The notes under the pieces are model-generated. The model made no database searches and was not told the DNA's origin. It was given only the letters and a program-made list of their open reading frames with translations. Made by a program: the position numbers and the translations under genes. A DNA stretch of 64,000 bases, from NCBI GenBank assembly GCA_021927905.1, contig BLLK01000046.1, positions 372,001 through 436,000 of the forward strand. Direction: 5' to 3'. This document shows positions 45,477 to 48,207 of this stretch, piece after piece (within the stretch, counting starts at the first letter, position 1; the number at the start of each line of letters is the position of its first letter). This DNA is from Chaetoceros tenuissimus. Lineage: Eukaryota > Bacillariophyta > Thalassiosirophyceae > Chaetocerotales > Chaetocerotaceae.

Positions 45477-46196
45477 CTATATCCACCATGGCTTCTCCCC
45501 AGAGCGAAAATCATCTTCAATCCAAGGTTCTAGCAAAACTTTTCCTGTTTCTTCTTCTGTTGTCACCTTCGCAAGCTTCAAAGAACTGGGTGCTGGTCCC
45601 CTCAATACACTTCCCTTTGCATCGTAGATACTGCCATGACAAGGGCAAATAAATTTCTGTTGATTCTCATCCCAAGGAACTATACAACCTAAATGAGAGC
45701 ATTCTGCATTCAGAGCAAAATTCTCCAACGAAACTCCATCCTTGGAAAGTAGTAGATATGTAGGATCTCCTTTTAATCCTTGTACCATGACTCTTTCATT
45801 ACTTTTATGCTTTTGAACAAATGCATCGTAATAAATTGGAGACCCCGTAATATCAGTTGCAATCTTTGGTTTTGGTCCCTCTTTGGCTGGAACTCCAAAA
45901 AGTGCAGAAGACGATGATGGAAACAAAACTGAAGCCATAGGAAAGCTCGAAGTAAGGAGTATATCACGGAGAAAATTTCTGCGGTCATTGAGTGTGTCGT
46001 TCTGACCCGACATCATCAAAGTACTCTTGCCATACATCATTTTTTTTCTCTCGGAATTCGTTTGCAAGCTGAATCTAGTATGTATCGTAGAACTTGCACC
46101 TTTATCTCTCTGTTGGGTTGTGAATGCGTCAACATTGTTGTTGCAAGCAAACAAGAGCAAGGTCATAACAAGTATCGACTTTTTTACTGAATACAT
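45477..46196 (-). CDS. petC: Cytochrome b6f Rieske iron-sulfur protein, plastid precursor
   Basis: This is a 239-aa single exon from ATG 46196. Residues 1-24 are a signal peptide ending NNNVDA, followed by FTTQQR, an ASAF-type bipartite plastid signal. DRRNFLRDILLTSS at ~71-84 is a twin-arginine thylakoid signal and membrane anchor. The Rieske domain contains CSHLGC (166-171) and CPCHG (184-188). C166/H168 and C184/H187 ligate the 2Fe-2S cluster, and C171 and C186 form the disulfide. The protein carries electrons from plastoquinol to cytochrome f in photosynthesis. It ends EPWIEDDFRSGEKPWWI, typical of algal PetC. Convergent with the rhodanese gene. Confidence 0.96.
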   Translation of the reverse strand: MYSVKKSILVMTLLLFACNNNVDAFTTQQRDKGASSTIHTRFSLQTNSERKKMMYGKSTLMMSGQNDTLNDRRNFLRDILLTSSFPMASVLFPSSSSALFGVPAKEGPKPKIATDITGSPIYYDAFVQKHKSNERVMVQGLKGDPTYLLLSKDGVSLENFALNAECSHLGCIVPWDENQQKFICPCHGSIYDAKGSVLRGPAPSSLKLAKVTTEEETGKVLLEPWIEDDFRSGEKPWWI

Positions 46197-46911
46197 GAAG
46201 ATTACAAAAGTCAAGAACGATCCAGAGAAAGAAAAAGATTGAAACGTTACCAATACCCAATACAAAGACTGACTAGAATTTCAAAAATACGAGAAGTGGA
46301 AATAGTGAATACGTAGTATTCCTCGCAGATAGATACAGAATAGACTAAGGTATATGATGAATGGATGAATGGATGAAAGATGTGAAAGGTGAAAGGGAGA
46401 GTGTGTTGAGTGTTGTTGCGGAAAGTCGATGCATGATGTGGCATGTCTCGTCATTGTTATTTCTATTTAGCTACATGCCATAGCTGAGTAAAGGATGACC
46501 ATAGCACCCCCATTATATTTCAAAAACAATGACAGCACCATTCTGACCAGATCCAACAAGGTGGTTCCAATCTATCTATCACAGCCATCATAGGATATGT
46601 ACATAAAGCAAAAGGGAGGCGAAGCTCTGTGGGAGACAAAGAATTGTTCGTATCAAACAAAATCTAATTACTTCCATCTAAGGCTTCTTTCTACGTTCTA
46701 GTAGTCAAGCGTAGCAGGATTAAAATTCGTAAAGTTTTATTATTAAATTTTACAAAAGGTCTAAACAAATATAATAAAATATTGATGGGAATAGCATGAT
46801 ATATTTGGTTTGCTTAAAACAGCACACGCGAATAATACGGGCAAGCAACCTATTCATGAATTGAAAGTAGCCATTTTTGAAAAGGCTTCATTCAAGACAA
46901 GTTCGTTTCTC
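46197..46911. other. Intergenic: petC promoter and silaffin-like 3' region
   Basis: This 715-bp region lies between two minus-strand genes and should contain the petC promoter and the 3' UTR of the silaffin-like gene. A short GAATG repeat is near 46360. I saw no RNA gene or other element. Confidence 0.35.
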
Positions 46912-48207
46912 TTACTCGTCAGATGATCCCTTTCCTTTGGAGCTAGAAGATTCCTTGGAGGAGCTAGATCCCTTTCCTTTGCTGGAAGACTTTGGACTCT
47001 TGGAAGACTTTGGACTCTTGGAAGACTTGGATCCCTTTCCTTTGGAAGAACTAGATCCCTTTCCTTTGGAAGAACTAGATCCCTTTCCCTTGCTGGAACT
47101 CTTCGGACTCTTGCTTGACTTTGGAGACTTGGAAGATTTCATTCCCTTTCCTTTGGAGCTGGAGGATCCCTTGGAAGAGCTAGATCCCTTGGAAGATGAT
47201 TCCTCTAGTCGTCGTCTTTCATCGTCAGATGATCCCTTTCCTTTGGAGCTAGAAGATCCCTTGGAAGAACTAGATCCCTTTCCTTTGCTGGAAGACTTTG
47301 GACTCTTGGAAGACTTTGGACTCTTGGAAGACTTGGATCCCTTTCCTTTGGAAGAACTAGATCCCTTGGAGCTAGATGATCCCTTGGAGGAGCTCTTCGG
47401 ACTCTTGCTTGACTTTGGAGACTTGGAAGATTTCATTCCCTTTCCTTTGGAGCTGGAGGATCCCTTGGAGGAGCTGGATCCCTTTGAGGAGCTAGATCCC
47501 TTGGAAGATGATTCCTCTAGGCGTCTTCTTTCTTCATCATCGGATGATCCCTTTCCCTTGGAGCTAGAAGATCCCTTGGAAGAACTAGATCCCTTTCCTT
47601 TGGAGCTAGAAGATCCCTTGCTAGGACTCTTGCTTGACTTTGGACTCTTGGAAGACTTGGATCCCTTAGAAGAACTAGATCCCTTAGAGCTAGAAGATCC
47701 CTTCGATGAGCTAGATCCCTTGGAGGAGCTCTTCGGACTCTTGCTTGACTTTGGAGACTTGGAAGATTTCATTCCCTTTCCTTTGGAGCTGGAGGATCCC
47801 TTAGAAGAACTAGATCCCTTTGAGGAGCTAGATCCCTTGGAAACTGAGTCTTCTTCTAGTCGCCGTCTTTCTTCAACATCGGATGATCCTTTTCCTTTCG
47901 AGCTAGAAGATCCCTTGGAGGAGCTAGATCCCTTTCCTTTGCTGGAAGACTTTGGACTCTTGGAAGACTTGGATCCCTTTGACTTTGAGCTCTTCGGACT
48001 CTTGCTTGACTTTGGAGACTTGGAAGATTTCATTCCCTTTCCTTTGGAGCTGGAGGATCCCTTGGAAGAACTAGATCCTTTAGAAGAGCTAGATCCCTTT
48101 GAGGAAGAAAGCTGTCGAAGACCATGTTCAGCAGATACTGGTGTAGAGATTGCAAGCAATGCAAGAATTGCTGCAAGGAGCAAAGCGATAGTTCGAGTTA
48201 TCTTCAT
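46912..48207 (-). CDS. Silaffin-like biosilica polyprotein with pentalysine-type clusters
   Basis: This is a 431-aa single exon. Residues 1-26 are a signal peptide ending STPVSA, followed by EHGLRQL, an RxL-type propeptide site. The rest is almost only Ser, Lys, Gly and Pro. It forms four ~80-105-residue units (about 34-113, 120-226, 233-330, 337-431), each ending in an acidic GKGSSD-D/E patch. The first three are each followed by RRRLEE (114-119, 227-232, 331-336). Each unit has SSSSKG repeats plus blocks of the MKSSKSPKSSKSPK type. Lysines there are spaced every third residue, matching the pentalysine clusters that target silaffins to biosilica in Thalassiosira. Silaffins carry polyamine-modified Lys and phospho-Ser and promote silica formation. 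Function here is inferred. Confidence 0.85.
   Translation of the reverse strand: MKITRTIALLLAAILALLAISTPVSAEHGLRQLSSSKGSSSSKGSSSSKGSSSSKGKGMKSSKSPKSSKSPKSSKSKGSKSSKSPKSSSKGKGSSSSKGSSSSKGKGSSDVEERRRLEEDSVSKGSSSSKGSSSSKGSSSSKGKGMKSSKSPKSSKSPKSSSKGSSSSKGSSSSKGSSSSKGSKSSKSPKSSKSPSKGSSSSKGKGSSSSKGSSSSKGKGSSDDEERRRLEESSSKGSSSSKGSSSSKGSSSSKGKGMKSSKSPKSSKSPKSSSKGSSSSKGSSSSKGKGSKSSKSPKSSKSPKSSSKGKGSSSSKGSSSSKGKGSSDDERRRLEESSSKGSSSSKGSSSSKGKGMKSSKSPKSSKSPKSSSKGKGSSSSKGKGSSSSKGKGSKSSKSPKSSKSPKSSSKGKGSSSSKESSSSKGKGSSDE

Follow-up and report, generated by a model that had tools for sequence, protein, structure and literature searches.

Our analysis of 64,000 nucleotides of the Chaetoceros tenuissimus genome (hereafter the window; GC content, 39.1%) revealed a minus-strand gene that encodes a protein built of four similar units (Table 1). 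The first-pass annotation had delimited its ORF exactly, and the secreted Ser/Lys/Gly/Pro protein that it described was borne out in composition, with 48.9% S, 23.0% K, 13.6% G and 3.7% P in the mature 405 residues. The signal peptide is predicted from hydropathy (peak 12-residue value of 3.25), from the VSA end and from the conservation of the leader in two paralogues described below. A search against Pfam profiles at an E value of 0.01 assigned no family to the window protein or to either paralogue, and a search of PDB sequences with the window protein at the same threshold gave no match; the chain is expected to be disordered. The gene is adjoined by an ORF with a Rieske 2Fe-2S domain (window positions 45477 to 46196, minus strand), with which we saw no link.

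Table 1. Features of the silaffin-like gene in the window and of its relatives elsewhere in the genome
Feature	Coordinates	Strand	Basis or remark
Whole ORF, 431 aa, uninterrupted, ATG to TAA	46912..48207	-	window translation
Predicted signal peptide, aa 1-26, ends PVSA	48130..48207	-	hydropathy; both paralogues keep the pattern and the PVSA end
RQL (RXL) site after signal peptide, aa 31-33	48109..48117	-	RHL in both paralogues
Unit 1, aa 34-117	47857..48108	-	C-terminal GSSDVEERRRL
Unit 2, aa 118-230	47518..47856	-	C-terminal GSSDDEERRRL
Unit 3, aa 231-334	47206..47517	-	C-terminal GSSDDERRRL
Unit 4, aa 335-431	46915..47205	-	GSSDE at stop codon, without RRRL
RRRL site 1	47857..47868	-	acidic flanks
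RRRL site 2	47518..47529	-	acidic flanks
RRRL site 3	47206..47217	-	acidic flanks
First lysine block, unit 1, KGMKSSKSPKSSKSPKSSK	47983..48039	-	includes the unit's Met
First lysine block equivalents, units 2-4	47731-47778, 47395-47442, 47101-47148	-	
Second lysine block, unit 1, KGSKSSKSPK	47950..47979	-	
Second lysine block equivalents, units 2-4	47629-47667, 47296-47343, 46990-47037	-	
AATAAA, possible polyadenylation signal, ~170 nt past stop	46736..46741	-	consensus match only
Paralogue A	C33:168055-168942	-	similarity to window gene
Paralogue B	C33:169598-170407 = L009:3599-4408	+	similarity to window gene
L027, 199 aa, leader, LRRL, five units rich in K(A/T)SKSP	C17:703662-704261		

The units follow the predicted signal peptide almost directly, separated from it by the seven residues EHGLRQL alone. 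RXL motifs start at residue 31 (RQL) and at residues 115, 228 and 332 (three RRRLEE), in register with units of 84, 113, 104 and 97 residues. The division into four units by one RQL and three RRRLEE sites, as first annotated, thus stands: the mature part holds four RXL motifs against a mean of 0.12 in shuffled sequences, and none of 5,000 composition shuffles reached four. The two lysine blocks and the single conserved Met per unit were likewise found in all four units, the Met each time within KGMKSSKSPK.

Lysines within the blocks are strongly clustered. KxxK motifs number 38 (shuffle mean, 21.1), lysines at four successive third positions 22 (shuffle mean, 1.1) and pentalysine windows 36 (shuffle mean, 3.2), and in each case none of 2,000 shuffles reached the observed count. 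The every-third-residue spacing noticed at first sight is therefore real as clustering; however, the longest such run, of seven lysines, was equalled in 24 of 2,000 shuffles, so this figure alone is unexceptional. The blocks also satisfy the pentalysine rule, although that rule was misdescribed as every-third spacing and calls for five non-consecutive lysines within 12 to 14 residues (PMC5501833, as far as the accessible text goes). The further claim that this geometry routes proteins to biosilica needs to be qualified. In the accessible part of a study of cingulin W2, the isolated lysine clusters LER1 and LER2 reached the frustule, whereas LER3 and LER4 stayed mainly intracellular (PMC9650480), and KSSKSP blocks also occur in C. 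tenuissimus ORFs with hydrophobic tails; lysine geometry is therefore no proof of silica targeting. Motif searches of the accessible literature found no description of SSSSKG/KSSKSP-type repeats, and the available passages on C. tenuissimus and silaffins do not describe this gene.

We compared the protein with known silica proteins, in each case as characterized in the accessible parts of the cited papers. For silaffin-like proteins (SFLPs), the rule of Scheffel sets minimum contents of 18% Ser and 10% Lys over 100 aa (PMC3478156), and the best 100-aa window of the protein has 45% Ser and 25% Lys. An ER signal peptide is the other criterion of Scheffel, and the hydropathy, the PVSA end and the conservation in the paralogues agree with one. 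The KXXK screen looks for repeated K-x-x-K motifs, with S or G at x, spaced 1 to 6 residues apart (PMC5501833); the protein carries 20 such motifs and 12 spaced pairs, together with the pentalysine windows and, at the level of the motif, four RXL processing sites in register with its units. The SFLPs and KXXK proteins of Thalassiosira pseudonana resemble it in Ser/Lys content, KXXK, pentalysine clusters and RXL (PMC3478156, PMC5501833), and their signal peptide has a predicted counterpart in the window protein. In one of them, Thaps3_24597, the motifs within three repeats of 53 aa are mostly KSSK (PMC3478156). SFLPs, however, are united by composition rather than by homology, and acid-capped RXL units are not described for them in these sources.

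In format the protein resembles silaffin-1 of Cylindrotheca fusiformis, as first proposed. The Sil1p precursor of 265 aa has a signal peptide, RXL, an acidic domain (aa 20 to 107) and seven basic Lys/Ser repeat units, R1 to R7, ending in RRIL or RRNL (PMC4557024, as described there in part), a format that the repeats bounded by RRRL match. The window protein differs in spreading its acidity as small caps at the putative cut sites, and it has four units of 84 to 113 aa, each with two KSSKSP blocks and one Met (Sil1p being compared by its description). Sil1p units are much shorter. Having only EHGLRQL in place of an acidic domain between signal peptide and repeats, the protein was rejected as a Sil1p orthologue. 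Silacidins likewise derive from a highly repetitive precursor with RXL at the repeat ends, which yields Ser-rich acidic phosphopeptides (PMC4557024, in part), but they are Asp/Glu-rich throughout, whereas the window protein is acidic at its unit ends only; with a net charge of +17 to +20 per unit before modification, it is not a silacidin. The cingulins CinW and CinY share K(S/G)2K clusters (PMC9650480) and RXL (PMC4557024), as far as these sources describe them, and have a signal peptide (PMC9650480), as predicted for the window protein; they have Trp/Tyr-rich regions, which by inspection are absent from the window protein, and this class was rejected too. Judged by its sequence, the protein fits the published composition and motif rules for silaffin-like proteins, and its format appears close to that of Sil1p. 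It lacks a Sil1p-type acidic domain, and the acidic caps at predicted internal cut sites appear to be new relative to the silaffin-like proteins described in these sources.

Collectively, these features suggest that the gene probably encodes a secreted silaffin-like polyprotein that is cut into four peptides, modified and active in silica formation. The signal peptide would take the precursor into the ER, and an RXL-specific endoprotease would remove the short leader at RQL and cleave the three RRRL sites. Trimming of Arg-Arg-Arg-Leu would then leave four peptides of about 80 to 110 residues, each with a strongly basic Ser/Lys body and acidic ends (EE... in units 2 to 4 and ...GSSD(D)E(E) in all). 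The lysines of the KxxK clusters would be methylated or alkylated with polyamines and the serines phosphorylated, and the resulting polyampholytes would bind polyamines and silica during formation of wall or seta silica. We infer secretion, cleavage, modification and the role in silica from the precedent of silaffins.

To find relatives, we searched the genome (41,027,912 bases in 68 contigs, among them those labelled C17, C33 and C34). Two paralogues lie head to head, separated by 655 bp and some 250 kb away from the window gene. In each, a leader similar to that of the window gene (MNITRSIALLIFACLALLAITTPVSA and MNIARSIALLIFACLALLAITTPVSA) is followed by RHL, and the internal sites are GSADEPETRQLEE and GSADEPERRQLEE in paralogue A and GSADEPERQLDN and GSADEPERRQLEE in paralogue B. 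MKSSKSPKSSKSPK blocks recur in both, preceded in both by Met. We also scanned with a codon pattern for K-x-x-K-x-P-K, where x is drawn from WSN codons (mostly Ser/Thr). It matched 80 times and the reversed control 17 times, and 31 of the 80 fall in the window gene and the two paralogues. The plan is not strictly kept, since both paralogues end in GKGYDRS instead of an acidic cap, DN replaces EE after one site of paralogue B, and unit 2 of the latter contains a scrambled stretch, IFQGKQVQEARGSSKEREESLKG, that resembles the family read in other frames and may stem either from paired frame shifts or from misassembly of the repeat. Paralogues A and B have DNA in common on both sides, upstream and downstream, while the flanks of the window gene (800 bases upstream and 500 downstream) have nothing notable in common with theirs, which points to an older split and, more recently, an inverted duplication.

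A third gene on this plan, L027, has internal sites reading SDSEDS-RRL-SS (three) and SDDE-RRL-SS (one), and its last unit closes with SVSED at the stop; it holds only two pentalysine windows, and searches with the window protein and with the L027 protein did not link the two. The arrangement that was at first noted as unusual, possibly a new silica-associated polyprotein, is real, and silaffin-like remains its best reading, in line with the published sequence rules, but it is not isolated, as three further genes (paralogues A and B and L027) clearly share the plan. As sequence evidence, the paralogues, L027 and the published rules strengthen the reading as a silaffin-like polyprotein. In another locus, L016, the sequences AEDRRLKG, EEVDRRLKG and VPERKLKG stand between Lys-rich repeats; a search with it matched L027 (E value of 0.001) and, at a weak E value of 0.08, the window gene, matches that shared composition may explain. 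L038 (two ORFs) and L039 carry two RXL motifs each. Because L027, L016, L038 and L039 add to the window family, RXL-punctuated, Lys-rich, secreted-looking precursors appear to form a repertoire in this genome, and the window gene is the longest and most regular among the loci examined.

These loci were chosen by similarity to the window gene, L027 or L016 or by the codon pattern and are therefore an uneven sample of the silaffin-like proteins of the genome. Across 29 sources (the window and L009 to L036), 22 ORFs passed a hydropathy and Lys filter; the Lys-rich ORFs of seven further loci were listed apart from this filter. The Ser/Lys composition rule, applied to the whole body where this was shorter than 100 aa, held for 17 of the 22. 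At least two RXL motifs occur in 5 of these 17, namely, the window gene, both L009 genes, L018 and L027, but those in L018 do not mark acid-flanked ends of repeats. Two or more are present in L014 and L016 as well, which fail the Ser rule.

The repertoire bears on the strongest competing explanation, that the protein is a basic component of the extracellular matrix or cell surface (for example, of an organic coat, an adhesive or chain-linking material) that is cut at RXL without becoming embedded in the silica. Several secreted-looking ORFs (L012, L013, L015, L023 and L030) combine KSSKSP/SKAPK stretches with hydrophobic C-terminal tails like those of membrane- or GPI-anchored surface proteins, so the blocks may be a general surface motif of the species, and frustulins also have RXL sites yet join the wall after the silica is made (PMC4557024, in the part consulted). 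Against this, the window protein and its paralogues lack a hydrophobic tail (best tail hydropathies of -1.34, -1.03 and -1.03) and contain 36, 32 and 22 pentalysine windows, compared with 0 to 12 in the other 19 ORFs. We regard a matrix role as unlikely, though it deserves to be kept in mind.

Several further observations were made at these and other loci. A secreted-looking ORF (L019:720-1487, plus strand) has SKGKGSKSSKSP repeats joined to a sequence that by eye resembles the start of an LRR domain. The KTSKSPK codon pattern has six matches within C34:3815895-3827481 (minus strand), at five sites spaced by about 2.9 kb, which suggests a tandem gene array; in L028, a piece of this putative array, the motif stands at the end of a 374-aa ORF that carries three RKL motifs. 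Silicon transporter (PF03842) matches occur at 11 places in the genome, in keeping with the silaffin-like reading of the window gene. Three lie side by side at C17:442278-446357 (minus strand), with one open frame of 1,459 aa and two internal stops in the third, a layout that suggests a multi-module SIT.

The positions of the acidic residues, overlooked when the RRRLEE sites were first, and correctly, described, add to the case for cleavage. Of the 21 acidic residues of the window protein, 20 are found no more than about eight residues from an RXL motif or among the last six residues, a zone that covers 66 of 405 positions (p = 2e-16). The same zone holds 14 of 14 acidic residues in paralogue A, 13 of 17 in paralogue B and 14 of 14 in L027, and 9 of 13 in L016 (p = 0.053). 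Ahead of RRRL, units 1 to 3 read GSSDVEE, GSSDDEE and GSSDDE, and unit 4 reads GSSDE ahead of the stop, so that the natural C terminus of the protein appears to mimic a predicted cut product. Unit 4 thus stops where RRRL starts in the other units, as expected if RRRL is discarded; most simply, GSSD(D)E(E) would be the mature end and RRRL would be lost. The cut sites are tribasic, and a Kex2/furin-type protease could cleave there too. Mature silaffin-1 peptides are described, in the accessible text, without their RRIL/RRNL ends (PMC4557024), and the removal of RXL domains in silaffins is attributed to a still unknown protease (PMC5525289, in part). The coincidence of the caps and the natural C terminus with the sites, along with this reported removal of RXL domains, argues against a protein that works uncut, with RRRLEE as mere spacers. 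The RXL motif is short and cleavage is read from the motif, which leaves such a protein conceivable; we consider it distinctly improbable. The basic, multi-unit build with basic cleavage sites would also suit a secreted protein that releases antimicrobial cationic peptides or bioactive peptides of another kind, but about half of the residues are Ser, hydrophobic residues are almost nil, the unit ends carry acidic caps and the composition obeys the published silica-protein rules, and we think this very unlikely.

The ORF and its architecture are plain from the sequence, and the constraint on its protein shows in the comparison of the units. Nucleotide differences between units fall at codon positions 1, 2 and 3 in numbers of 52, 50 and 122, i.e., 122 of 224 at third positions, and in each of the six unit pairs pS is greater than pN. 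Units 1 and 3 have 79 of 83 aligned residues identical, yet they show 20 synonymous differences. Both TCN and AGY codons are used for Ser at equivalent positions of the KSSKSPK core, and all nine codons of the RRR triplets still encode Arg, with AGA and CGN mixed. The sense frame had the top identity among the six frames in all six pairs, in an alignment that was built on the sense protein and so favours that frame. Between genes the synonymous excess is weaker (pS of 0.534 and pN of 0.342 for the window gene and paralogue A; 0.118 and 0.070 for the two paralogues). One antisense frame is also open, for 431 codons opposite the ORF and 464 in all. Because it contains no ATG and the third-position excess tracks the sense frame, we rejected an antisense gene and took the open frame for a by-product of repeat composition. 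Tandem DNA periods of 18, 24 and 99 to 117 nt, the 464 open antisense codons and the frame-shifted stretch of paralogue B would fit a low-complexity repeat expansion of little function, its open frames being by-products of the DNA repeat, but the third-position differences, the encoding of Ser by both TCN and AGY and the leader and RXL sites kept across genes make this highly doubtful.

A silaffin-like polyprotein is of added interest in C. tenuissimus because silicification of the setae independent of a silica deposition vesicle (SDV) has been reported there. According to the accessible part of that report, seta silica lies outside the cell membrane and no SDV was seen, and its authors speculate on a secreted organic template (PMC8324917). 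The window gene is no more than a candidate for a part in seta silicification. A more specific version, in which a fused silica peptide with a basic, silaffin-like body and acidic, silacidin-like ends would be released outside the plasma membrane at the growing seta tip as part of the secreted template for SDV-independent extracellular silicification, is in our estimate improbable. Homology is a poor guide to silica proteins, and a family within one genome reveals which features are kept, in this case the leader, RXL, the acidic caps at predicted cut sites and the KSSKSP blocks. The secreted-looking peptide precursors described here would provide a concrete list of candidates for the speculated seta template.
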